A DNA stretch of 64,000 bases, taken from NCBI GenBank assembly GCA_020091685.1, contig CM034599.1, forward strand, positions 34,573,920-34,637,919, in the 5' to 3' direction. Both the position numbers and the translations under genes were made by a program. The notes below the pieces were generated by a model that was not told the origin of the DNA, did not search any database, and was given only the letters and a program-made list of their open reading frames with translations. Each line of letters opens with the position of its first letter. The first letter of the stretch is position 1. Shown here piece by piece: positions 1 through 64,000 of this stretch. The DNA comes from Lutjanus erythropterus. Lineage: Eukaryota; Chordata; Actinopteri; Lutjaniformes; Lutjanidae.

Positions 1-3000
1 CAATAAAGCTGTGATGAGGCCAAAAAAGTGTTAAATATTCTACCTTCTTTGCAAAATAAAGGTTTTAATATTCAATGGGAGAAAGAAATATCTTTATATT
101 TCCATATTAAACTGCCCAATACACATGAATGCATTCAAATCCTTTACTTAAATCAAAATACTAATACCATACTGTGAAAAAAATCAACTAGCAGTTAAAA
201 AATCATCAAAATGTTCTTAAAATATGAAAAGTAAAGAACTCATGTAGTAAAATGATCAGTTTGTGTTTTACTTTGCTTTATTGCATCTGATGTTTTTGGA
301 TTACTATAAATCTTGCATTTTACAGCTGTGGAGGGTTGCGTTTATTTTAATTACTTTATATATTGTTTGGCAGTTCATTCTATAGAATGCATCATTTTAT
401 ATACGATCATCAAATGTTTGTAGTGTCACTGTCCTGTGAGAAGCACATATCTTTAAAAAGTCGACTTTTCATGGTGTCTGAAAAACAGCCAGTTTTCAGC
501 TTTGTGACAATACATTTTCCAGCTCATCCAAGAGGGTGTTTAAAGAGTTAACATCGCCGAAGAAAGTCGGAGAAGTTCCTCAAGCCATAAACAAACAATT
601 CATCCTTCAGTTTACCACAAACATTGAAAATCAAGTCAGCCACATATACATGGTTTTCACTGGACAGGGTATGAAATATTGCAATCTGAAAGGTAACTAG
701 TAACAAAAGCTGTCAGACAAATGTAAAAGGTATGATACAAACACCTTGAATTTGTACCTAAGTACAATATTTGTGTAAATGTACTCAGCTGCAGTCTACC
801 ACTGCTGAATTCCACCACTCAGTTCAACTGAAATTTAAATGCAAGCATCTACTGAAGAAATAAAGACGTCCCTTACAATATACTGATGAACATTTGCTAC
901 AAAAAAAGTATCAACAAAAGTGAAATATTAGATGGCAGAATATTTGGATGTTATAGCATTCCTGCTTCAGCACCTACCTTGATATGTTGAGAATCCTGCA
1001 GACCAAACACAAGACTAATTCTGAAGTGTTTCAGTGCTGACTAAAGCAGAACAATAGATGCTCATATCTTCTTAGTCTAGTATTGGACATCTTTTATAAG
1101 GCTGTTGACATGTGTGGGTACAATAAACCAGTAATTCATCATCCGGTTCATGTCGGTACCATTATCCACTTCAGCACTCGGTAAATCATTTAACACCCCA
1201 GACACAGTAAAATTAGAGAGTGCTAAAAATTCTTAAAGATAAAAGGAGAATAAGTACACCAGACGTGCCTATTTATTTGCAAAGTAAACATGTGTTTTGT
1301 GGTTTGGGTGTAAAACAATGGCAAGAATCCGGTTTGGACTTTAAATACATGTCTGATCATGCATACTTATTACACTGACTGCAACAAAAGACATTATTTG
1401 TAGGGGAAATATGATTTTTTTTTCTTTTTTTCTTCGCTACCCTTAGTCTGCCACAGTACACACAATACACTTATTCCAGCAAACAGTTGGCTATACCATT
1501 TATCTACAGACACAAACGCTGACTTCCACTAAAACAACATAATCTCCACAAATCACACTAGTTAAATGTCCCCAAAATCTGCATTTATTCTCATCATTTA
1601 CAATGACAGCGACAGTCAATTAAAAACACATTTCTTCACCAAATTTACAGGTCAGTAACGTAAGCATCAAAGCAGTAAACTCAGGTGGTTTTAATTAGAG
1701 TGACCGATTAGACCTCTGCGTCAGTCCATGTGCTAATAAGAATGATAAATGGGTCATTTGTCCCGCCCTAAAAGGTGCAGCACAGTTGATAAGAGGGTGA
1801 GAGAGATGTCAATCAAGCACGGTCTGTAAAACAACCACAGTGCAGCCAAAATAATTAACATCACCTTTAAGTAACGGACCCTTTTTTCAGCAGCCATTTT
1901 GATATGAAATATACCACTCATACTAATTTAAAAACTAGTGCGTAAGATTTACAGGGCTCTATTGGCAGAATATGGCACAAATGGAAAATAATATTCATTA
2001 TTATGTTTTCATCAAATTTTGCACAACTCTTGCAGACACAGAAAGTTCTCCAACTCCTTGGCAGGAGAAAGTGACATGAGGTGTTTTTAATCTGTTTGCA
2101 GGCTACTTAATCTTACAGACTGGTCCTTTAAGGTTCCCTTCAAATTCAGGTAAAACAGAGTCAGGGTGTTGCCATTTTTCATGCAGGCTCCCCAGAAAGG
2201 CTCTTATAACAGGACTTTAATTAGTAACACTGGTAACACTATTATTTCATATCAGTATGATCGCTGTGAAAAGAGTCAGTAATATCACAAAATAGAAATA
2301 CTGTTACATGTAAAAGCCCTGCTTTAAACTATAGCTAATTAGCTACCAGAAAATATACTCAGAAGTATAAAAACTATGCAAAAAAAAAGTACTCACTGAC
2401 TTTATCAGCATGAGCAATCATTGGTTCAAGCTGGAGCTTCATATGCTTTTGTATTGTTTTATTGCTGATCACATGTTTTGGATGTAAAATGTTTGTCTGC
2501 AAAGTGACCATCAAATAAATGCAACTAGCATGGTACAACATACAGCCGATAGTTCTGCGGGTATTTGATCAAAAGCCATTAAAAAAAGTCTAAACTGATT
2601 TGACAATATAGAAGAAAATTTCAATTATGAAAAATTTCAATTCAAATGTCTATGACCCGAGTGTTTGGCTCAGACTGCAATATCCCAACCACCGGATGGA
2701 TTGCCATGAAATCTGGTGCAAAGCGGTGGACCAACTAACTGATACTGTCATGATGTGAGCATGGCTAAAAAGACGTGCAAAGGATCAACTGTGTGATATA
2801 ACAGCTCTTTTGTCAAGCTATTTTGTAGTAAAATATTTTAAGTAAAATGACATCCATTCTCTGGTTCCAGCTGCTCAAATATGAGGATTTTCCACATTGT
2901 TTCACTCCAAACTCAATATTTCTGTTTTCAAGTGTTGGTCACAAAAGACAAGACATTGATTGAAGAAGTCATGCTAGGCTCTGGAAAACTGGAATGTGCA

Positions 3001-3735
3001 TTTTGAACTACTGTGTGACAGACAAAATGATTAATCGAGAAAGTAGTCAGCAGATTAAGCAACAGTAAAAATTATTTAGTTTCAGCTTTAAGGGCCACCC
3101 ATACCAAGAATGATACTTGAACTATAAAACTATTTTAAAAATCATTCTTACTGAAGTGGTTAGCAGAGTCCAGAATGCAACTTTATATTTGGCGTGAACT
3201 CCATCCACTTGAGTTAAAATGATTTACCATATTTTTATAGTCACTGTTTTTAGTGTGGAGGGCCCTTTAGTCTTCAAGACACATAATGTACTTGTGGGGA
3301 ACATTTGGTCTCTCAAGGAAAAGAAAAAAGCTGCAGCTGCAGTGGTCTTCCAATCCTTCAGATCAGAGAATACACACAACAGTCTGGCATGTTCTGCAGT
3401 TGAGGTCTCCCTTCCCCAGAGAGTTGGTAGTGTCTCTTTTGCTTCCTACAATACCACATCCTTGTCCTTTGTCACCCTCGCTGCTGAACCTCTTGGCGAA
3501 TTGAGAATGATTTACAGAGGAGAGTCCACCTGGGGCGTCACTGACCTCTGTCTGATGTTAGCCATCAACTTCCTGGCACTACCAACCATCAACCCATGAA
3601 TGAAAACGCTCTTTTTAAACACCGAATAATGTTCAAATCAGTTATATAACACTATACATTTAGTCCCTGTCAAATATTCAGCATTGGTGGTCTAACCAAT
3701 ACTAAACAATGCTTAAATAACTTCACAGAAAACAG
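1..3735. other. Intergenic, no supported gene
   Basis: AT-rich sequence with no exon chain on either strand. An AATAAA at 2-7 could be the polyadenylation signal of a plus-strand gene ending left of the window, but nothing else supports that. Pieces of dispersed fish repeats are visible: about 1938-2130 (a family sharing the phrase CTGGTCCTTTAA), 2204-2275 (a family ending near GCTGTGAAAA) and about 2690-2740 (a family with GGATTGCCATGAAAT). A GC-richer block at about 3240-3600 holds a 126-codon plus-strand ORF that resembles nothing I know. Confidence 0.6.
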
Positions 3736-3751
3736 TGGAAAATGCAAATTG

Positions 3752-3757
3752 TTTATT
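3752..3757 (-). promoter_or_regulatory. lrp13 polyadenylation signal
   Basis: AATAAA on the minus strand, about 30 nt downstream of the stop codon in the last predicted lrp13 exon (stop at 3788-3786). The close spacing supports that short terminal exon and implies a very short 3' UTR. Confidence 0.6.
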
Positions 3758-3785
3758 TAAAACACTGCTTGCCCATGAATCAGCC

Positions 3786-6700
3786 TCAGTCCACAGAAGA
3801 TACCGCTTCCTGCAAAAGAACAAACCGTTAGACCACAAGCACAGTAAGATAAATTGAGAACATGCTAGTTTAAGGGTTTTTTTGGGAGGTCCACCTCTGG
3901 TTTGTCTGCCTCTGCTGGAGAACTTCGTGTACTTGGGGTGGACTCTGCTTTGTTCTCCAGGTCAGTCATATTCGTTTCCGTCACTGCTGCTGTACTAGCT
4001 CTCCTGCAGGAAGGAAGCACAAAACTGTAATCCTGTGCTACCTCTGGATAGTCAACTGTTGCAATATGTGGTAAAAATTTAACAGTGTCTGCATATATAA
4101 AACAGATAGACCGTTTTGTTCACATCAATATTCCTAATCTTGATACCATGTAGTTTAGGGGACATTTGTTGCCATCTCTGCATCTTTTAGTGTTTTTTTA
4201 AAAAACCACAATAGCAGTGTAGCTCTGGGATGGCAATGTCCATCAGGCCACTTTTATCAAGACTGAAGCATCTATTAACTATTGGTTGGCCTGCTACCAA
4301 ATTTTGTACAGATATTCATGGTCCCCAGACAATGAACCTTAAGAATCTGGGGATCCCCAACTCTTCCTGTAGTGCCACCATAAGTAGGGCTGAACGATTT
4401 TGAAAAAATATCCAGTTACGATTTTGACCAATACTGCAACTGCAATATGATTTGCACTATTAGAGGTAATGATCATTTTTACATCATTCTTTTTTGATTG
4501 AAAAATGTTAAAACTGGTTGATTTTTTGCAGGAATCTGTACCAAATGAACAGTTTTTTTAAGTCTGTAGAATTTGATTTGTAGGACAGGACATCTCTGCC
4601 TCATGAGGTTTGACAAAACTTTTGCCTTTAATATTGCACCTCCGCAATTTGAAAATTGCAGAAACCCATATTGCGATTAGTAAAATTGAATTGTGCAGCC
4701 CTAGCCATAAAGTTCAAACTTTGGGTTTTTAGCAAATGCTTTGACAACTACTGGATGAACTGCCATCCAGCTTGATTCGGACATCTTGGCTCAGACATTC
4801 CTGGTCCAATCAGGAGAAGATCTGGTGGTTCTCAACTAACTATTAATTTACACCATCATCAAATCATTTTTGTCATATACTTTGGTTTATGACCAAATAG
4901 TTGCAAGGATAAAGTCATTCCCTCAGCCAGTGAGCAACTTATGGGATGAGGGGGATCCCATCCCCCTTATAAGCAAAATGACCAAAATTCCTAACCAAGA
5001 TGCAGACATACCCAACAAATATTACATGCTAAACATGCTAGCATTGTCAGTGTGCAATGTGCACATGTTAACATTTAGCTCACTTCACCACTTCTGCCAA
5101 AGCACAGCCACCCAGAGCCACTACAATGGGAGACTGCAGAAAGACTGAACTTATACTTACTTTTAACTACACATTTATATATGTATCATGGCTGACTTGT
5201 ATATCCTGTGTCCACCTGGAGCGATGGTTGTATACACAAATGCATGGTTAAACAGTAACAAGTATTTCTCTGGCCTAAACACATTCCCAGGCTTTCTTAG
5301 CCTGGAGCTAACAGCTGTTACACTAGCACAATCCTAACACATTTCAAATAGCGCTAAGCCAAACTTCGTTCTGTAACTAGAGTTTGCAGGGTTATCGATG
5401 AAAACTGACTAAACAGAGGGCTGTTACAGAGTAGTAGTGTGTCATTCCAGAATGTAACAGCTGTGTTCAGATATTTAACCCGGAGCTAGAATAAGTGTAA
5501 TGTGAATCATATAGCCCTGAGATTTTTTAACCCTGGGTTAATAATATGCATGTGAAAATGGGTTATCCCAAGAATATGCATCATGAAAAGCCCTTCAAAA
5601 TCTTGATTAAAAGTTGATATCTTGTAAGAAACACACACTGTATGTATGTTTAATGTTGTGAGAGGAAAGTTTCTACTTCTTTAGTAATCAAACAAACCTT
5701 GTGTTGGCACTCTTCCTCCTCTTAGCCACCACTGCCACAACAGCAATGACCACCACTCCTGCACAGAGCCCCGCAGCGCCATAGACAAGGGGACCCTGCA
5801 TGGTCTTTAGGAGGTTGTGTTGACAGGAATTGCCGCTGTAGCCCAGTGAACACACACATGCAGTGTCTCCACTGGTCTCCACACAGCGTCCATTGCCACT
5901 GCAGCGTATCTGGCTGCACTGCTGGGCATCCAGGTTCCTGAGCTGACCGCTTACATTCAGGGTGGGGTTCAGGGCAGGGACTTCAGAGAAAGCAGGGAGA
6001 GGAGGGGGTGGAGGAGAAGAACTGTGGACCTGGGTGGTAGAAGGGGCCTTGGCTCCTGACCACTCCTTCAGATTGACACCTATGAAAAAATGATAGTGTC
6101 ATCAAACAAAAAAAACCCTCTTAGTTGTTTGTGTATCATGACATTTTCCTGTTCTCAGATGGTATAAAGGCTCACAGTTCTCGTCAGAGTGGTCAGAGCA
6201 GTCAACGTGCCCGTTACAGAACTTCTCAACAGGTTGGCATGAGAGTTGATCCAGACAGGGCCTGCTGCCAACTGGGCACTGTTGCTCCGGACTGCAGTGG
6301 GTGCCATTCACGAGGACGTGATCGTGGGCGCACTTGCATGTTCGACCTCCTGGGGTAGCAAGGCATAAGTGCTGGCATTTGCCGTTGTTTGCGGCACACT
6401 GGTTTAAACCTGTGAAAACCAGGACGGTAGACCGTCAGTCGGTTGGAGTTTGATGTTTAGGGTGATGGTCAACACTAGATGGCACCTCACTATGCTCACA
6501 TTTGGAAGACCTTCTAAACTGCCATCAGAACTGTTGGAGCATGGTTTTTGTGCGTACCATTCTGACTGGACTGGCTGAACGCCTTTAAGCTGACGACCTC
6601 TGTCCCAACCTCAAACCACAACTTGGTCTGCTGCTGCTCATCTCTGTACCAGAGTCTGGTCTTGTCTGAAGGCAAATGGACAACAAAGTTATGTGGCTAC

Positions 6701-12700: not shown

Positions 12701-15700
12701 TGCGCAGGCCAAACAAGAAGAGGTCTGTTTGGACTGACGACAGCAGGAAGGGTTCACCTGAGGGATGAAAGAAAAAAATCATAGTGGGGGTCAATTTACT
12801 CTAACGTAAGGTTTTCCAGGTGATTACTAATAGAAAAGACTTTATAACATTTCTGCCATATTCTTGGGAATATATCCCTACAAATCTTACACACTGGACC
12901 TTTAAGTCACAAAACTTATGCCTCACTTTGTTTCTGAAATGCTCCTCTGCACACTGTTCTATGGCCAACTAAAGGAGACCGTCTGCTAAAGGGCTTTACC
13001 TGTGATCTTGCAGTAGTGTCCACCTGCCTCCTTTATGTAGCCTGGGTGACAGTCACACTGGTATGAGCCTGGACTGTTGATGCACAGCTGACTGCACACA
13101 CCTGGATTTGCACACTCATCAATGTCCGCACAGGTCAGACCGTCCTCCTGGAGCCTGAAGCCTGCTGAACAGCCACAACGCTACACAGCAAGAACCAAGC
13201 AGCATTTAAATGACACACCTGGTGAGTCGTCATGATACCCAAAACACATGGACAGAAAAATGCTCATTTACCCAGACTGATCTCAGAAACTCCACATTAT
13301 ATAGCTACATACAGTTTAGTTTAACTTTCATTTGAAAGGCATCGATGTGTAGGACACACTTTGACTTCGTTTGTTAAACTTGAAGCACACACGAAGCTGG
13401 AGCTACAGGCTCCTCACCGTTCCCTGTGGCGTGCTGTAGCAGCTGTGTGAGCAGCGGCTGTTATCTGCCTCTGCACAGTTTATCCGGCAGCTGCCTCCCT
13501 CGTCCGAGCCGTCTGCGCAGTTGGTGATGCCGTTGCACACCAGGGCTTGATCCAGGCACTCCTGGCTTCCGCACTGGAACTGGTGAGGGAGGCACGTCAC
13601 CACCCCACCTGGTACACACACAATTTTTATGCTTAACACAAGATTTTACAAGCATTCAGCTTACATTTTGAAATAAAGGAAAATCTGGTAGATCCTGGTG
13701 TTTTATTATCAGCAAAGGTTTACTTTTTTCTGTTTTCAAATGTAGCTGAATACATCAGTTTGCTAAAAGCTCAAACCTCTTGATGGAACTGCAATGATGA
13801 CGGTTTTGTATTCCAAAATTCAGAATGGATCCTGTTCTAAAAAGAAAGAGTCTATCTCTATGCTCCTCCCTATATCCATTTGGTTATTGCACAGTAACTG
13901 AGGTTGAATTTCAGTATGTGCTATTGTAGCAGGAAATAAACAAATAAAAATCAATAAAAGCAGGCCTAAAATGGGGAGTTTTTAAGTGTAATGTCCCTGA
14001 TCTCCTTGAACCGCAAAAGCCTGGTACCTTTAGTTTTCAGGTCTGACTGAGCAATGGTTAGGAATGACCTACCCAAGGATCCAAGGTTGTACTTAGATTA
14101 GTTTTTAACAAAGTCAAAGAAGACTTACAACTTTACTTGGACTTAAGCACAAATGACTCTGATGTTGAAATGGCATTACATTTGGGGCTGGATTCGAACT
14201 AGAGATGTTGTACTTGACACAATGACACCCTCATTTCACTTAAAAATCAAGCGTTGTTTCATTTAATTTCACAACTTCACCTCACTACATGTTATATACT
14301 GGATAAATACTCACATTCAGTCTCATCACTGCCATCATCACAGTCCTTCGTGCCATCACACTTCCAGGCCGTAGGGATACACTTGGTCTTTGACTTGCAG
14401 GACCACTGGAACTCATCACAGTTCAGCTGAGTCACAGGACAATCCTAGAAGAGGAACCAGTTGATTATTTTACTGTCATCTGAGCTTGTTCTTAACTGTT
14501 TGTTTGCTTTTGCAAATGCTTGATGTAGTGGTCTAAAGCCAGTCTAAACAGTCATTCACCCAGAAGTTCAAAGAGCCCGTTTAGGGCCCACATGACCCCC
14601 AGAGGTCCCCCACAGAGCAATATTATGTTCATTGACTGGCTAGTCAACCACTGTTTTAATAAATTCCAGCTGCCTGTCAGAGCTGGTGTCATGTTCCTGT
14701 ACACCGTGAAGGACTTTAACTTTGAGTATCAAAGTGCAAATTAAGAATCAGACCTCTCTTGCACATTTGAGGTGGTGGGACCAAATCAAATTCTGCTCAG
14801 ACCCTTCCAGAGATCAGGGTTTTTTGTTTTTTTTTTGTTTAGTCTACTTTTGCCCCAAAAACGTTGTGGTGCTTCCTTCAACATCCACCTTCTCATCTGT
14901 GCCATCCTTGCAGTCCTGATCTCCATCACAGATCCACTCCTTCACCAGACATTCTTTGCTCTGGGGGCAGCGGTGTTTGGTGGTACAGGTTGGTGCGTTC
15001 TTGCAGCTTTCCTCGTCAGAGCGATCCCAGCAGTCCAGGTGACCGTCGCAGCGCATCGTGGCCGACACACACTGACCACTGGTGCACTTAAACTCTGTGG
15101 CACTGCAGTCCTCGTCCTCTACAGGGAGAGAGGGAAGATCGATCGCAAAAGGTGCTCTTCGAGCACAGCTGATTAACACACTGAGTAGATTTAAAGGGAA
15201 AATTCTGCGCTTTTCATGTGGTCAACAGGTCATGCGCAGTGCAACTTGGTGCATGTAAGCACTGCTGGCATGGCTCCACAAGCAGGTGAACTAACATAAG
15301 ATGTGACCCTAAGTTTCACTTCACAGGAAAAGGAGAATGTTTTCTTTGTACCAAGATTTCTCAACCGTTATTGGAGTACAGAGCAAAAAGGGGCAGGGCT
15401 TTTGGGTCAATTGAATACATTTACCATCAACAAACATTCACATGAAAAGAGAAGAATTTCCCCCTTAATTTCCTGGTCCAATAACAGCGTACCACAGTTT
15501 GCCTCGTCACTGCCGTCCCAGCAGTCCCTCTCCCCGTCACAGAGGAAGCTGGCAGGGATGCAGCGGCTCTTGTTGTCACACTGGTGAGCGCAGCCCTCCA
15601 CCTGCTTGGCACACCCCAGTTCATCTGAGCGGTCCTGACACTGAGACACGCCGTCACACACCTGGCTCTGCTCGATGCACTTCTTTCCATGAGCGCACTG

Positions 15701-18700
15701 GAACTGGTCTGCAGAGAACACATGGCATGATCAGGATGCTGGCAGGACTGGGGTTCAAACTGGGCTTCAACTTGTGCAGAGTGTTCCAGGCTTTAGAGGA
15801 TGTAGCTGCCCTCCATAAATAATCCTATGAACACACCCTAAATAGCAAGGCTAGTCCTCTGCACGGTATAGCAACTCCATTGTTGTATAAAAAAGCCCTT
15901 TCACTATTTAATCAGTAGCTGTAAGAACAATTTTAGATCAACAGTTGCTTTTTGATTAGTTAGAATTCCAAGCCACCATATCTGTAATATAATTTCAACT
16001 AGTAGCAGTTCTAATTAAAGATATCTACAATTCATTCCTCACTTGTCAAAATGGTAATTCTTGATATCCTTTTTTTACACTTTTTATTTATTGACATTTC
16101 ATCTAAGCACATATTTTGCTGACTGTGCTACAAGTTTGTATCATTGTGTAATATAAATCATATCATGACAAAGAATGTGCTGAGACAAACATCCTATACA
16201 GATTCAATCTCATTTTTTAAGTGAGATAAAGGAAGAAAGGGGGGAAAAATGAGAAAAAAGAGAACAAAAGATAAAAACCTCAAACAGAAAAAACAATAGT
16301 AACAAGAAATGCATAAGTAATAATATAATAATGACAATGATAATCATGACAGCAAAATTACATAAATGTTATCATTGTCATTACCATCACCAACAATGAT
16401 ATTAACAGCATCAATAACAATAATGAGACAATAGGAGGACAGTAAAATATATATACAAATATAAATTAAAGATATTAATTAGAAAATAAATACAAGCTGA
16501 TTGTGGCAAAGTCAAAGGAGGGACTCTACAATGTGGCATCCTAATATTTCTCCTTACTTAATGTTATAATCAAGTTTTATAGTACATAATCAGTACACCT
16601 TACTTGAGTTTGTTCTAGTTCACTTGGTTGCAATATTCAGTCCATTTTCTCCATCTACTCTCACCGAAGGGTCCTTTGTGGGCAATTCTTGATAAACGAG
16701 TATTTCTTATTCATGGAAATGACCTTTGTAGATATCTAACTTAATTACTATTACTTAACTTTATACTGTTGACTTCTAATCAAGCTAAATTAGATAATAC
16801 AAGTGATGAGTTTTAATTCCAAGTAGACATATCCATAATCTAATTTTGACTAGTTGCAGTTCCAGTAACGATATCCATGACTCAGTTTTTACTACTCAAA
16901 TGTTAGTAATTGTTAACAGTTAAGTTCTCATTAGTGGAAATGTCAATTCTGTAGATAAGTTTTGAACAGTCAAAATGCAATAGTGTATGTGAAAATATTA
17001 GTGATGTAACAATATTTCAAATATCGCAATAAAAAAAGTCTCAATACCATTCTGGACTGTGACACATCTACCATTACATAGTTAATTCATTTATAAAAAG
17101 GACTGCCATTGACTGTAGCATTGTTTGGCAATACATAAAACATTCGTTGCCAAAGAAAACAATTTTTTGCGCACATGCTTCCATCATGGCAGGCTACTTT
17201 TATTAAAAGTAAAGCACAAGCACTTTGAGTTAAGGAAAAAACTAATTTTACACAAACAAAAAGCTATACACAGATTTATTATTGATAAAAAGGACATTTA
17301 AGACATAATTTTCCTTTATTTTTCAATATTGTGCTAAAAATACCATGGACTTTATCTTTTCTAGAATTTCTGATATAGTTCCATCCCTAGAAAATTTAAT
17401 TGTATTGAAGCTATAACATGTCAAAATTGCATTACAGATCTTAATATTAACTTTCCCATGAGTCAAAACTAAATCACTACTAGTTGGCCCTACTGATAAA
17501 GTGTTAATAGGGCTCGCCATGGCCTAATGTCACTTCAGATCCATGTCTTCTGACTACAGTCAGGTCAATAGTTAAATTTACTAATACTTCTCACTTCATG
17601 TCAGTCCATAGTGTCAAGCCAAATTGCAGACCATCTCTGCACCAACTTCAATGAAGAAACACCCTGCACACTGAATGTACTTTTTTTTTTTTTGATGTTC
17701 TAAAACAAAAGACAATCGTGATGCCCACTAGAGGGCAGTAGGTTCACAATGTTAACCCACGTTCAGGAGGTCAGGCACAAACCAAGCATCAGATTACCCG
17801 TTTCACATGCCAATAAGCAGTCTTCCTCATCTGAGCCGTCTCTGCAGTCTGCTTCTCCATCACACACGTGGTTGTAGAGGACACACTCCGCTTCGTCCTT
17901 GCAGGGTTTAGAGCCTAAAGGACACTTGATTGGGGTCGACAGGCCAACAGACGCAGCGGGAGCAGAGCTTGGACTGGTTCCCTCCTCTTTTTCATGTTCA
18001 TCATCCTCTTGGTCCTCTGATGCAGATGATAAATAAAATTATGACTCAAGACTGCATATTATGCAAGGGAGATGATCTCCTGCAAAGAGATCTATAAATC
18101 ACTTCAACGTACCACAGTTGGCCTCGTCTGTGCCATCTAAACAGTCCCTCTCTCCATCACAGAGGAACTTTGCAGGCAGGCAGCGACTCTTGTTGTCACA
18201 GTGGTGAACGCAGCCCTCGGTTTGCTTCGTACAGTGCAGCTCATCAGAACGGTCCTGACACTGAGGGATATCATCACACACCTGCTCCCTGTCTATGCAC
18301 TTCTTCCCATGAGCACACTGGAACTGATCTGTCAGGATATCATAAGACAAAGTTATAGTTTTGATCTAAACAACAATTATTGCAGCTCATTGCAGTAATT
18401 TAAAATTACTGATGTTATGTTTGATTGGCTGCCACATGAAATATTGAAACAGTGACTTGATACATGTAAATACACTTATACTTGAACATAAATATACTTG
18501 AACATGTGATATACATTCAGTTGCTACTTTTTTAGTTACATAATGCAGTCCAACACAACAGTCTTGAAATAATTCTGCCTTTGTTAAGGTTGTGATGGTC
18601 AGTTTGTTAACAAGAGGTCTTATTATTTAGCCAACCCTAAATGATATAACTGGGTGGACAAAATAATAAAAACACTTGTCAGGATAATGCAATACAATTC

Positions 18701-20845
18701 AACAACGCCACAAACTTCAGCCAGCCAAAATGACGTCTCTAAAAACGGTTTCAACAAAAGTTTGGATTAGATTGCATTGCTATAAGTTTGGTGTACTTGT
18801 GTAAACTACCAACTGAGTGCATTTTGCTCCATTTAAATCGACAGGATTCAATATTTAGCAATGCAAAAAAAAAAAAAATAAGACATGGTAATAATACCGA
18901 TCTAATAAAAGCACCCCCACTCCACCCCACCCCCAACATGCAAGAGCAAACAAGAATGGGCTGACTAGTCAAAAAACAAAATTACATTAATATATGAACA
19001 TATAAAGTTGAGCTTGGTGTACGTCACAATTCTTCAGCTTCCATATTTGCCACAAAAGTTAGAAATGGTTTGCAAAGAAGCACCATGCTGATCCCTTGAT
19101 GAAACAGCTGATCTTCTCCAATTGAAAATAGTATGCAACATCTTTAATCCAGTGTCCACAATATTTGTTTGAGCTCTTCTCAGGTTCACATCCTGGAGTA
19201 TTACTCCAAATATTCTCATTGACACATGGAGCAACACACTGTCCCGAAGTGTTTGAAAAAAGTTAAATATTAAACTCCAGAGGTTTTATACTTTCTGACA
19301 TGACCAAACAATAGGCTGTGGTACAAAGGGGCCATTAAATATTTATCGATCACATGAAGGATCAAGATCACAGTTAACCTAACTTTGGGCCATTCAGACA
19401 GTATAGAATTTAACTTTTTACAGGAGTAGGTTCTTACAGCTCTAGTGTTCCCTTTGATAAAAATGGAATTTAAAAGGAATTAAAGAAAATACAGGAGATT
19501 GTGTGGCTTTGTATTTATGATACTGACAGGCATGTGAACCACATTTTCTATAAAACTGTTTTCATGTTAGATTTCTAAGTTTCTCTGCAATTTCAACTTG
19601 ATGAATCAAGTCATTCAGTCCATTTTATGACAGTTCTTCAGGACTTATCCATTGTGCACTGGAACAGTTTTATTAGCAATTCAGGAGTTTTTTTTATTTT
19701 CTAGGTTATTAAAGAACATGAATTCACATCAGATTTCAATTCAACCACGGTAATTTGGAAATTGTTCATCTTTGTAACCAATGAAAAAAAATATGCACTT
19801 CATTTATGCCAAATACAAATTCAAATAGTATTCCCAAACCTCATTTCTGCCAGATTACTCTTTTCAGTTATAGGACATTTCTGCGAATGCCTGAAGTTCT
19901 GACTATGTGGCCCACACTTCTGTGTTGTAATTAAAGTTGGATTTGACTTCACCAAGCATTATCTGCAGTGGTGGAATGGAAATACATTTACTCAAGTCCT
20001 GTACTCGAGCACAGTTCTTGATTATTTCCATTCTAGGCTACTTTGTACTTCTATTCTGCTAGATTTCACTGATATGTTACACTTACTCCACAGAATACTA
20101 CATACTCCACAACATTTCTAATACCTATACTTGATACTTTTTACATATATATATAAAAAGATATTCTTATGATGCACTATGCAGTACAATACCACGAGTC
20201 TAACCCATAGCACACAAGGTATCTGAAATAAGCTCCACACTGACGTACTATAACATTAAAACGCTCTATTTGTTAGTGATAAAAACAATATAATTTTCTT
20301 GAATAAAAAGACATTTTGAAGGGAGTCAGCCTTCATAATGAACACATACTTTTACTTAGCATTTTGACATTTTTATTTGTAATATTTCTGCTTTTACTTA
20401 AGCAACAAAATCTGAGCACTTCTCCCACCACTGATTGTCTGTAGACACAATCAGTACCTTCATTGCAAGCTGATTCACAGTCCTCCTCATCTGAACCATC
20501 GCTGCAGTCCGGCTCTCCATCACACACATGGTTGTAAAGGACACACTCTGAGCCATCCCTGCACGGTTTAGAGCCCAGGTTACACTTCAAAGGACTGCTT
20601 CCAGCTGAGACAACTGTTTGGATCAAACAAAATATCAATCACTGCTGCAAAATTAGCCAAATTATAGCTGATGGGGCATCCCTACCCATTCTGTGTCTGA
20701 ACAGAGGAGCATCACCTTGAATAAATTATAACGCGCAAAGTCTAATTTTGCAGATAGTGTAAAAGCAGGACATTGGCTTACCTTGCAAGGGCCCTGACAA
20801 CTGCAACAAAACTGCACAAGGAAAAAGAAACAAAACTCCACCCAT
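3786..20845 (-). CDS. lrp13: LDL receptor-related protein, probable lrp13 (21 exons, 1364 aa)
   Basis: Type I membrane lipoprotein receptor of the LDLR family. Exons 5' to 3': 20845-20782, 20613-20458, 18328-18113, 18016-17798, 15708-15493, 15118-14889, 14444-14315, 13608-13418, 13180-13000, 12757-12545, 11626-11443, 11060-10859, 10158-9994, 9652-9452, 8167-7618, 7506-7387, 6665-6558, 6409-6176, 6079-5698, 4003-3895, 3809-3786. Every junction keeps frame. Order: signal peptide (1 to about 21), ten LDLa modules (about 30-440), two EGF modules, YWTD propeller 1 (about 535-789), EGF, a degenerate propeller 2 (about 857-1115), EGF plus an eleventh LDLa, proline/serine-rich linker, EGF, one membrane segment (about 1289-1312) and a tail of about 52 residues. 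The ten-plus-one LDLa layout fits the piscine ovarian receptor Lrp13, a proposed vitellogenin/lipoprotein receptor, as I recall it; the symbol is inferred. Weak donors are GTCGAA (exon 10), GTTTTA (exon 14) and GTTTGT (exon 19). Confidence 0.8.
4386..4705. mobile_element. MITE with GGGCTGMAC-type inverted ends
   Basis: Lies in lrp13 intron 20, between exons 19 and 20. The left edge reads GGGCTGAACGATTTTG and the right edge ATTGTGCAGCCCTAG, roughly reverse complements. It is about 320 bp with no transposase. A related fragment with TGCTGCACAGTATGG sits near 22650. Typical of short non-autonomous DNA transposons in fish. Confidence 0.6.
5275..5600 (-). mobile_element. Dispersed repeat related to 43960-44397
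   Basis: In lrp13 intron 20. It is rich in phrases such as AACCCTGGGTTAA and GCTAACAGCT, and shares them in opposite orientation with 43960-44397 (both end near GCTTTTCA). No coding capacity. Probably a MITE family; the edges are approximate. Confidence 0.45.
6558..8167 (-). other. lrp13 degenerate second propeller (exons 15-17)
   Basis: The blade positions read [40 protein letters not shown] and RLWYRDEQ, so only one or two keep a proper YWTD. Exon 15 (8167-7618) is unusually long at 550 nt and encodes about three blades without an intron. Exons 16 (7506-7387) and 17 (6665-6558) complete it. The fold is inferred from repeat spacing and position between EGF modules. Confidence 0.6.
6985..7160 (+). 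mobile_element. Fragment of a GGGCTGGGCAATAT-type MITE
   Basis: In lrp13 intron 16. The left end is GGGCTGGGCAATATATTGAT, followed by ATGAGACTACATATAG and then TTTTCTGAACT. This resembles a widespread fish element whose ends read GGGCTGGGCGATAT. Only the left part is recognisable. Confidence 0.5.
8700..9430. repeat. Dispersed repeat fragments in lrp13 intron 14
   Basis: The intron between exons 14 and 15 (9451-8168) holds repeat pieces and no further exon. About 9040-9110 has the TAGCTTAGCATAA type phrase also seen near 45600, 27300 and 61910. About 9230-9420 ends with GCTGCCGTGAAAAA, matching fragments near 2270, 39140 and 59760. Confidence 0.45.
10421..10816 (-). mobile_element. MITE family A, copy 1
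   Basis: In lrp13 intron 12. It contains the family core in reverse, GAGAAGGCAGACATCTCTA, and ends with GATTTTGGGGTGGACTGTCA, close to copies at 11088, 24680 and 29166. The left part also has the core in forward sense (CAATATAATGGGACTAAATG), so the element is a long imperfect inverted repeat. The 5' part at about 10300-10420 appears to be a different sequence. Confidence 0.55.
11088..11398 (-). mobile_element. MITE family A, copy 2
   Basis: In lrp13 intron 11, about 30 bp from the start of exon 12 (11060). It has the same core, GAGAAGGCAGACATCTCTA, and the same end, GATTTTGGGGCGATCTGTCC. It leaves little room for the branch point and polypyrimidine tract of exon 12. Confidence 0.6.
15709..17797. 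other. lrp13 intron 4, no further exon seen
   Basis: 2089 bp between the duplicated LDLa exon pair members, AT-rich, with a low-complexity block near 16190-16500 (AAAAG-rich, then ATAATAATGA-rich). I looked for a third copy of the LDLa exon unit here and found none. Its size is close to the 2129 bp of intron 2, the equivalent position in the other unit. Confidence 0.6.
18329..20457. other. lrp13 intron 2, no further exon seen
   Basis: 2129 bp, AT-rich, without LDLa-like reading frames apart from the flanking exons. There is an A-run near 18866 and a short C/A-rich stretch near 18905-18940. I see no transposon I can name. Confidence 0.5.
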
Positions 20846-23729
20846 CGCCACTGACAAAATAAAACGGACCAAATGGTGTCAAGTGCTTAAGTGTTGCATT
20901 TTATAAAGACACCAGGTGAAGCCAATACAGGCTAATTGAACACCTGACTGAGGGGAGGAGTTATTGCTGCTACTTCTTGAGCGATTGCACTTTTATTTTT
21001 ATTTGTTTATTATATCATACATAGACGGAATAAAAACATACTCACACTGGACCTTATCTAGTTAGCAAGAGCTTTTATTCTATTTTAACTTATTTTTGCT
21101 CTTAATTTACTGTCTTTTGTTGAAAGTGTAAATAATGAGTTTACGTCCTGTGAAAATGTTGAATAAAATTGCTTTTGCCTCCAAACTTCTCTGAATGAAG
21201 ATATAAACGCATGCTGTCAAACAGACAATAAAAATTGTCAAAACATCAACCAGTATTCTTCTTTTAATCTTCCAATCAGTTTTTGAATAGGAGGGATTAA
21301 GAGCTCGTACGTAACCATCAGGTTTGTTTTGTTGTTCCGGTCTACCTAACCTAGCAAACTAGCTCCTAGCACTGGTAGCAACTTGAGAGGAGCCCACTAG
21401 CCTTGTCAAAATTAGCTGCGGTACAACACAGTTCGGGCATTTTTATGTCGATAAGGTGTTTAGAGGGCTGTGCACATCTTTTTCTCAGCAAGCGGACCTT
21501 CGGACTTTAAAACTGGGGTAACTACTGAAATGCTTTTCGCTGTTTTCTCGACTTTGCAGCATGTTGTTTTGTGTGAGAGATGTAGGTCCGTTAGCCAGCG
21601 GGAGCCAGGGCTCAGTTTGGAAGAGTTCGTCCAAGATGCTAACTCATTTTGGTGCCGTTTGTGTATTTTAATAAAAGTCACAAACATTCAGTAGCTACGT
21701 TGAAATAAAATACTGCAATGTTTAGATTGATTAAGGGACATTTTGTCATCAGATAAATTATAACCTGTTTTTATTTGACAAGCTGACGTTAGGTAGCAAA
21801 GTAGCGCGACTTGACTGTTGCGCACAGGAGGTTTTTTCGTGGATCACAACAAAAGGATTTTTGATAACAAGCTGGCAGCTAGCTCACTGAAGCTAATGCT
21901 AGTTGACCTAGCTTGGTGAGGACTTCTCCATGAATTGCCTCCGGGCTGCTCGGTTATCTTAACCATATTTTTTCGTTTTTAGTTGAGACTATTTGAGCAT
22001 TTTGCTGTTAAACACTCGGCATGCTAACGCTAGTCAACTTATTGTTATGATTTGAGTGAAGCAGGCCCCCCATCAGGTAGCTAGCAGCCGGCCTTCACAA
22101 GCCACATAGTGTTAGCACTGGGGGGCCTGTCACAAAATACTCTGCTTGTTCACATCCATGTTATAACACTCATTGGGTAATTCATTATGTTCATTAGTAG
22201 CCGGTCGAGATTGCGTCTATGCACGGAATACGACAGTGTGAGGCACACCCCTGTGTCAACTTTATAAGTTTGCAAGCTAGCTAGCTTGGTTGTCGAGCAG
22301 TGTTTGTGACAAGCTAACGTCAAGAGGACATCTATACCAGTGTTGCCAGATTGGTTTAATATTTTCCAGCCCAATTATTGTTCTAAATCCGCTCAAACTG
22401 ATTGAATACGACCCATGTATTATCTATAATACAAAACAGTAGCAGCAATATAGTGGTTCATAACATATTTTAATGACATAATAATAAAATCACAATTAAG
22501 TGTTCATAAATGTGCTAGGACGCAGATAGGAGTTACAGTGCAACTAACTCAATCTCTGCCCTCTGCTTAAAAGTGAAGAAGAAAATTAAAGGAGCAGCTC
22601 AAATAACATTAATAATAGGCTTTATCTAACTGCAATAAGCCTTGACAGTAGTGCTGCACAGTATGGTAAAAAAAAAAAAGTTATTATTTCAACAGATATT
22701 GTGATTGTGCTGTCATTCATGCTTAGTGGGAATGATCATTTTTCATCACAATTTTCACTGAAAAACACTATTAAGATCATGATGATATGACATTTGATGG
22801 GCCTGTGCCAACAAACATATTGTCTTACATCTCAAGAACAAGATTTGTAGGCCAGGGCATCTCTGCAGCACTACAGTACTTCATTTTAGTTCTATTTTTT
22901 CCACACATTTTACCTTTTTATCAAACACTTGCAGCTTTTGCAATTTGGATATTCCACTGATCAGTTGGTCAGCCCCTACTTGACAGTGTGCCCAATTAAA
23001 GTGTATCCTCTATGTAGGAAGTGCATGCAATTTCATGCTATCAAAAAGCCAAACAAGTAATGATGTTGTAATGTTGCAACCAGTTTGTGTTATAATGACA
23101 GTACAAATTCGGTGGCTGCAGATCTCCTTTCAGCAGAATAAATAAACACTCTGTCATGTCAAATTCTGCTGAGGAACTGGATATCAATATATATACTAGA
23201 TTTCTAATGTGTTTATAAAGCAGCCCAACCCATGCTAAACCAGCCCAAATTTCTGTTCACCCATCCAAGCCTAATCTAACCTGCACAATGTAACTCAAAA
23301 CAGACCAATTGGGCATAAAACAGCCCTATCTGGCAACTGTGCAATCTACTTGGTCAACTAAACAAATGCATAACTTCACACAAGGCAGTTATGTAATATT
23401 AGCAATGCTGCTGCCAAAACAACATTACTATTTTGTTTACTACTCAAGTTTCATTGAGGCCTTTTTATTGTTTTGATAAGGCTACATGTGGTTATGTTTC
23501 TGTACCATGTTTTGTTTGTAACAATGTACTTTGTGTGTGACTTTCTCCCAAGGTGTCCATCTCTTTTGAGTATACGCAGCTAGCACTGGCTTCCACCCTG
23601 TGACTCACTGGTCACTAGAGGGGCCCCCGTCAGAGCAAGGGCCCAAACTGTAGCTCTAGGTCCCCTCTGTCTGTGTGTGTGAGAGCTTGTGTTGAGTCCT
23701 CTGGAGACTCCCGGCTTGTCCAGCTTAAG
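20846..23729. promoter_or_regulatory. Divergent lrp13/smad2 intergenic region with probable 5' ends
   Basis: The lrp13 start codon (20845, minus) and the smad2 start codon (23730, plus) point away from each other across about 2.9 kb. About 21300-22150 is less AT-rich, has more CG dinucleotides and repeated GCTAGC/GCTAAC phrases, and is the likely site of the untranslated first exon of smad2. I cannot fix a TSS or the 5' UTR splice; candidate acceptors before the start codon are at about 23552 (CCCAAG) and 23579 (CGCAG). About 22650-22930 looks like a MITE fragment. Confidence 0.4.
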
Positions 23730-33822
<10,093 letters not shown>

Positions 33823-49948: not shown

Positions 49949-50608
49949 ATGAAGAAGCAAGGAAAAGGCGATACTGCCACCATCCCCCTCTCTTCCCCAA
50001 CAGGGAGCAGCGGTGTGCAGGTCTACCATGACTACCAGAAAGTGGCTTTTAAGATGTTTCCCGGGAATGGTCATGCAACAGAAAACGGTTCTCACGCCAG
50101 GAGAGACACCAGCAAGATGTCCTCTGTTCCAGACATCATCTGTAACAGCCCGGACCAGAGGAACAGTGTGAAAGACAACAGCATTCAGAGGAACTCCACA
50201 TGGACGATGGATTCAAGCAGCCAGGCCTATTCAGGTGCGGAGGACAACTCCACAGACCCACATGAGACCCTGACAGAGACCTCAACTCTGACCTTTGTGG
50301 ATGCCCACACCCTGGAGGAATCAGCAGAGAACCACAGCCTCCATGGGGTGGGGATGGTTTACCTCAAGGAGTTTGTGCTGATAGATGACGACGATGATGG
50401 AGACATGTCGTTAAGAGAGAAAACGGTCACAGACTTGTCCGTCATGGACGGGAGAGCTGCTGATCTGGTTCGTGGGAGGCTGTTGTCCACCTCCAGTGGC
50501 TCAGTGTCGGAGTGCAAAGAGGAGTCTCCGGCTCCCGAGGCGCCTCCACCAGAGGAAGCTGTAACTGTGCAGGAAAAGAAACGCTGCTGCTTCTGCACTA
50601 TTCTATGA
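49949..50608 (+). CDS. Paralemmin-like prenylated protein without coiled coil (219 aa)
   Basis: Single coding exon. The acceptor is at 49935, and an in-frame TAG directly precedes the ATG, which fixes the start. Near the N-terminus GVQVYHDYQKVAFK followed by ATENGSH resembles the paralemmin core (VY-D--K- then ENG-H). The middle is serine- and acid-rich (VLIDDDDDGDMS). The C-terminus KKRCCFCTIL carries a CAAX box with final leucine, favouring geranylgeranylation of C216, with C213 and C214 as likely palmitoylation sites, as in paralemmins. Paralemmins act at the plasma membrane in cell shape and filopodia. The usual N-terminal coiled coil is missing, so this is either a reduced family member or a short isoform. 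The family call is by eye; I do not recognise the exact orthologue. Confidence 0.65.
   Translation: MKKQGKGDTATIPLSSPTGSSGVQVYHDYQKVAFKMFPGNGHATENGSHARRDTSKMSSVPDIICNSPDQRNSVKDNSIQRNSTWTMDSSSQAYSGAEDNSTDPHETLTETSTLTFVDAHTLEESAENHSLHGVGMVYLKEFVLIDDDDDGDMSLREKTVTDLSVMDGRAADLVRGRLLSTSSGSVSECKEESPAPEAPPPEEAVTVQEKKRCCFCTIL

Positions 50609-54261: not shown

Positions 54262-64000
<9,739 letters not shown>

Follow-up and report, generated by a model that had tools for sequence, protein, structure and literature searches.

A two-exon, three-LDLa-module unit duplicated in tandem long ago in an Lrp13-type receptor gene of Lutjanus erythropterus

Why does one receptor differ between fish species in its number of LDLa modules? 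Lrp13, an ovarian receptor of fish reported to bind vitellogenin (PMC9935665, PMC4651544), varies in this way, and the relevant passages of PMC9935665 and the related sources give no reason for it. A stretch of 64,000 nucleotides from Lutjanus erythropterus (the window) raises the question at the level of exons, as an lrp13-type gene on its minus strand encodes its first six LDLa modules in two exon pairs, E2+E3 and E4+E5, that resemble one another.

Architecture and identity of the receptor gene

The exons and the distal module are listed in Table 1. The predicted N-terminal model, E1 to E9, is open over 534 residues, and Pfam finds ten Ldl_recept_a stretches in it followed by EGF modules, with M1-M3 encoded by E2 and E3, M4-M6 by E4 and E5, and M7-M10 by E6 to E8. 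This agrees with the preliminary description, which had counted 3+3+4 = 10 N-terminal modules plus one distal. The distal module, M11, is located after an EGF-type module and is absent from the Pfam matches at E 0.01, despite its six cysteines with LDLa spacing. Further Pfam matches, for which exon pieces were joined by hand, are to EGF_CA, FXa_inhibition/EGF and Ldl_recept_b. A hydrophobic stretch near 5.7-5.8 kb, spotted by eye in the reading frame, forms a putative transmembrane segment; no unsplit NPxY motif occurs in any minus-strand frame of positions 1-5684, downstream of the putative transmembrane exon.

Table 1. Exons, selected introns and the distal module of the lrp13-type gene (positions in the window)
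Feature	Position	Strand	Description
E1	20782..20845	-	Start codon and signal-peptide exon; 64 nt coding, phase 1 end; conceptual, start by eye, GT donor
E2	20458..20613	-	Unit 1: M1 and first Cys of M2; 156 nt, phase 1-1
Intron 2	18329..20457	-	2129 bp; interrupts M2 after first Cys
E3	18113..18328	-	Unit 1: remainder of M2 and whole M3; 216 nt, phase 1-1
Intron 3	18017..18112	-	96 bp; separates units 1 and 2
E4	17798..18016	-	Unit 2: hinge, M4, first Cys of M5; 219 nt, phase 1-1
Intron 4	15709..17797	-	2089 bp; interrupts M5 after first Cys
E5	15493..15708	-	Unit 2: remainder of M5 and whole M6; 216 nt, phase 1-1
E6	14889..15118	-	M7 and M8 (M8 without last Cys); 230 nt, phase 1-0
E7	14315..14444	-	M8 end (last Cys) and M9, whose last Cys codon is split; 130 nt, phase 0-1
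E8	13418..13608	-	M9 end, M10, start of EGF module; 191 nt, phase 1-0
E9	13000..13180	-	Remainder of E8's EGF module and EGF_CA module
M11, distal (+1) LDLa module	6174..6278	-	Six Cys, LDLa spacing

The gene that starts at 20.8 kb looks, from the architecture on which its name rests, like an LDL-receptor relative of the Lrp13 type; by homology it would serve the oocyte as a vitellogenin receptor. Lrp13 (LRX+1) is marked by 7-13 N-terminal LDLa modules, of which there are ten here, by an extra LDLa module near the C-terminus, which is M11, and by EGF modules, YWTD repeats and a single transmembrane segment, all of which are found here, the last by eye only. LDLR and VLDLR (Lr8) share the LDLa, EGF and YWTD modules, and in these two receptors the LDLa exons are in phase 1 and there is one propeller. 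They are described with 7 or 8 LDLa modules, in contrast to the 10+1 here, and in oviparous animals VLDLR is reported to mediate the uptake of yolk protein (PMC11772764). The PDB entries matched by unit 1 are of VLDLR, LDLR, LRP2 and LRP4, and these matches reflect general LDLa similarity. Relatives of the unit were absent from the viral contigs and prokaryote genomes searched, as expected of a vertebrate gene.

In eel, zebrafish and medaka, rchy1 is reported upstream of lrp13 (PMC9935665). A scan of the window with CHY and RING motif patterns, a weak test, gave zero matches to rchy1. The upstream neighbour here, at 23619-33795 on the plus strand and divergent from the receptor gene, consists of SMAD MH1 and MH2 exons, with the last MH2 piece falling under the Pfam cut-off. 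Two lrp13 copies on separate chromosomes are reported in fugu, and the gene is reported from a newt as well (PMC11772764); by analogy with two-copy fugu, the gene here may be the other lrp13 copy. Elsewhere on the plus strand, EGF-type exons at 54383-63318 are followed by what by eye is an apparent run of Sushi exons, of which one scanned exon matched, in a gene that resembles the SUSD1 type. A 219-residue open frame at 49949-50608 (plus strand) ends in CCFCTIL, a possible prenylation end, and has no Pfam match at E 0.01.

The repeated exon pair

The preliminary description had proposed that E2 and E3 are mirrored by E4 and E5, and its coordinates are borne out: the four exons, of 156, 216, 219 and 216 nt, each have an AG acceptor, a GT donor and phase 1 at both ends. 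Its residue counts can also be reproduced. The 31/37 counted for E2 against E4 corresponds to a 36-residue module from cysteine to cysteine at 83.3% identity (30 residues) plus a shared preceding Lys, and the 57/72 counted for E3 against E5 is 56/71 plus a shared Asp of the split codon; counted from KC onward, E2 and E4 are identical at 33/43 residues. The repeat is visible in DNA as well, with ungapped stretches of 227 nt at 80% (15485-15711 against 18105-18331) and 110 nt at 81% (17818-17927 against 20478-20587). The collinear module pairs M1/M4, M2/M5 and M3/M6 are 83.3, 75.0 and 81.8% identical, while the remaining 52 of the 55 pairs among the eleven modules average 40.6% (sd 4.8, range 30.3-51.5%). 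The inner linkers are equally long in units 1 and 2, at 3 and 6 residues in each. The copies are thus adjacent, collinear and mutually closest, with symmetric 1-1 phases, the marks of tandem exon duplication. We conclude that a unit of two exons and three LDLa modules was duplicated in tandem at this locus long ago, an event of an ordinary kind. A search of the window by tblastn with both units, where the unit 2 query included ten residues of E6, returned, apart from the LDLa exons of the gene itself, no third copy or remnant with E below 0.5.

Module trees, which the preliminary description had offered as a way to refute the pairing, uphold it when built from distances and do so less firmly by maximum likelihood. 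Neighbour joining on protein p-distances (500 bootstraps) pairs M1/M4, M2/M5 and M3/M6 at 99.8, 100 and 97.8%, and on codons (500 bootstraps) at 100, 99.2 and 98.6%, with every other module pair at or below 38% support. FastTree recovers all three pairs from codons (0.930, 0.877 and 0.866, in the same order); from protein it recovers M1/M4 (0.707) and M2/M5 (0.854), with no M3/M6 clade. IQ-TREE pairs M2/M5 from protein (93) and codons (92), M1/M4 in the codon tree only (47), and M3/M6 in neither, inserting long branches within that pair at near-zero lengths. M3/M6 is in this way unpaired in three of the four maximum likelihood trees. All trees used the same 37 columns, and because a single-module alignment is this short, we weighted the distances above the maximum likelihood trees.

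The copies differ in one segment. The start of E4 (17925-18016, minus strand) encodes a 31-residue hinge, acidic and then Ser/Pro-rich, that joins M3 to M4 and is without counterpart in E2; the eight other linkers within M1-M10 have 3 to 6 residues, compared with 31 for this one. The hinge has no significant similarity to intron 1 (64/500 shuffles scored as high) or to the start of E6 (54/500), nor does intron 3 together with the hinge have any to intron 1 (208/500).

Exon and cysteine register and module counts among fishes

In both units, the long intron interrupts the second module just behind the module's first cysteine; ESACNE closes E2, and DQFQC follows. Neither E2 (7 cysteines) nor E3 (11 cysteines) therefore holds a whole number of modules, while the whole unit contains 18 cysteines and three modules. 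Gain or loss of E2 or E3 singly strands a cysteine, whereas the whole unit can be gained or lost. For each of the 28 contiguous blocks within E2-E8 we simulated a duplication and a deletion, with a change in cysteines by a multiple of six as the criterion. Sixteen of the blocks are in frame, and 14 of these 16 are open both when duplicated and when deleted. Only four of the 14 pass the multiple-of-six criterion both ways, namely E2-E3, E3-E4 and E4-E5, with 18 cysteines and three modules each, and E2-E5, with 36 cysteines and six modules. Three more pass as deletions only (E6-E7, E4-E7 and E2-E7, with 3, 6 and 9 modules lost); in the case of E6-E7, the duplication meets a stop, while the deletion leaves an open frame with seven modules and 18 cysteines fewer. 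Qualifying single events would take the ten modules to 1, 4, 7, 13 or 16, in changes of 3, 6 or 9. The rule of three hinges on the multiple-of-six criterion. When an even number of cysteines is accepted instead, E7-E8 (16 cysteines) passes and yields 12 or 8 modules, but it cuts the EGF module shared by E8 and E9; duplicated E5-E7 (28 cysteines) then gives 13 modules, and E3-E7 (46 cysteines) gives 16. The exon/cysteine register is a likely reason for three-module steps.

Published counts can be set beside this register. In the passages of PMC9935665 that list them, Lrp13 is 7+1 in striped bass, white perch, yellow croaker and short-finned eel, 10+1 in greater amberjack, which like the receptor here has ten N-terminal LDLa modules and one distal, and 13+1 in cutthroat trout, and the general LDLa range is put at 7-13, leaving room for other numbers. 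All of these are receptors of the same type with the distal +1 module, and, compared by published counts, those with 7+1 and 13+1 lie one three-module step away from the 10+1 here (PMC9935665). The six teleost counts, second-hand and from related species, all fit 4+3n, as the register predicts (PMC9935665). A swordfish transcriptome is reported to contain no lrp13 match (PMC6517582). Among the papers listed as matches, including PMC9935665, PMC4651544, PMC11772764, PMC6517582, PMC8834532 and PMC11463792, none ties repeat number to exon units in its matching passages. Domain number is likewise reported as amplified in teleosts for the zinc fingers of Piccolo, an unrelated domain in an unrelated gene (PMC3484663).

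Unit copy number as the thing that varies across species would be consistent with the counts, with the sequence itself read in one species. We give about even weight to the full reading, in which the register limits gain and loss to threes, 7, 10 and 13 modules stand for one, two and three E2+E3 units, and unit number is an old character with both gains and losses. A competing account, which we hold to be possible and on the whole unlikely, is that the differences among fishes arose by independent loss or gain of different exon blocks, such as E6-E7 or E3-E4, with 4+3n following from cysteine balance alone. The E6-E7 deletion also arrives at seven modules in an open frame, and E3-E4 and E2-E3 are equally balanced; moreover, the copies here are old, yet striped bass, white perch and yellow croaker are listed as 7+1 (PMC9935665), so that losses have to be allowed for if the copy is shared. 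Set against this, the extra block in Lutjanus erythropterus is plainly E2-E3 copied as E4-E5, and E6-E7 works only as a deletion. If the copy predates the split between 7+1 and 10+1 fishes, some 7+1 receptors would have lost a unit.

Age and mode of the duplication, and likely function

The preliminary description gave lengths of 2129 and 2089 bp for the introns inside the two units, and both are exact. Their near-equality had been offered as evidence of duplication, and we discarded it as such, since introns 2 and 4 score like shuffled controls: the best local score is 28 (shuffles 28.7, sd 2.6; 66/100 as high), the global alignment is also like that of shuffles (34/60 as high), and BLASTN finds only short scattered matches, the best being 14 nt at E 0.045. 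The comparisons for homologous introns or breakpoints (introns 2/4, 1/3, 3/5 and 1/5) are all at shuffle level. For an old event, intron homology is not a defining feature, and its absence makes any claim about date or breakpoints weaker and leaves the homology of the exons untouched. The two longest of the eight introns between E1 and E9 do occupy equivalent slots, with a chance of 1 in 28, which is a mild hint that the long intron was inherited. Intron 4 also holds two 59-nt copies of its own at 78% identity (15953-16011 and 16804-16862), perhaps pieces of a dispersed repeat.

Divergence was taken over 114 codons (43 of E2/E4 from KC, 71 of E3/E5), which are 77.5% identical in bases. With our own NG86 script, dS is 1.16 (codon bootstrap 0.66-2.79) and dN is 0.149 (0.09-0.22); Biopython gives dS of 1.30 (NG86), 0.77 (LWL85) and 1.46 (ML), and 10 of 24 comparable fourfold sites differ. 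A dS of about 0.8-1.5 makes the copies old and a false duplication unlikely. The low dN/dS, about 0.1-0.2 for the two units jointly, shows purifying selection on the pair taken together. The exon pairs are unequal in dS, at 1.86 for E2/E4 and 0.91 for E3/E5, and this, within a wide pooled bootstrap range, is what might be expected if the two exon pairs had been copied or homogenised separately; such a history is highly improbable against the collinear pairing of three modules, inner linkers of equal length, matching phases and a second module that is cut at the same place in both units. An assembly artefact has the smallest chance of all, as a base difference of 22.5% and unrelated introns are unexpected for a falsely duplicated haplotype and tblastn shows no further copy in the window below E 0.5 beyond the gene's LDLa exons, a collapse of extra near-identical copies being the form of it that could still apply.

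With high confidence, then, we read the locus as an Lrp13-type receptor gene in which the segment E2-intron-E3 was tandemly duplicated long ago and in which the register would favour change by whole units. The duplication of the segment with E2, the long intron and E3 probably came about by unequal exchange, with inferred breakpoints in intron 1 and in the intron that follows E3. As the exons of the segment are symmetric in phase (1-1), the copy was spliced in frame at once, and the whole unit, with its 18 cysteines and three modules, can be gained or lost. The added modules would extend the array, leaving the Trp-Trp pair of M8-M9 in the non-duplicated block.

This last point bears on function. 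The aromatic site of RAP contact, which we take to be the position two before the fourth cysteine, is occupied in M1-M11 by H, Q, F, H, Q, F, M, W, W, L and K; the H-Q-F pattern is repeated in each unit, and the only adjacent Trp pair is that of M8-M9. The residue before the fifth cysteine is Gln in M2 and M5, in contrast to Asp in M1, M3, M4 and M6-M9. M3 and M6 (18114-18212 and 15494-15592, minus strand), and with them both copies, share a short first loop in which three residues separate Cys 1 from Cys 2, against five or six in each of the nine remaining modules. In fragments of LRP1 and LDLR, RAP is reported to bind adjacent module pairs via conserved tryptophans, and mutation of these tryptophans abolishes or strongly lowers binding (PMC8239462). 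From the residues at these positions, the four-module block M7-M10 may hold the main site, and the units may contribute reach or weaker contacts. White perch VtgAa reportedly binds Lrp13 primarily (PMC9935665, PMC4651544), and by analogy the receptor here is predicted to bind yolk protein. A step of three that is built into the exons makes the variation of Lrp13 among fishes testable, through counts of units, through the placing of each gain or loss on a phylogeny of fishes, and through a link to the type of yolk protein.
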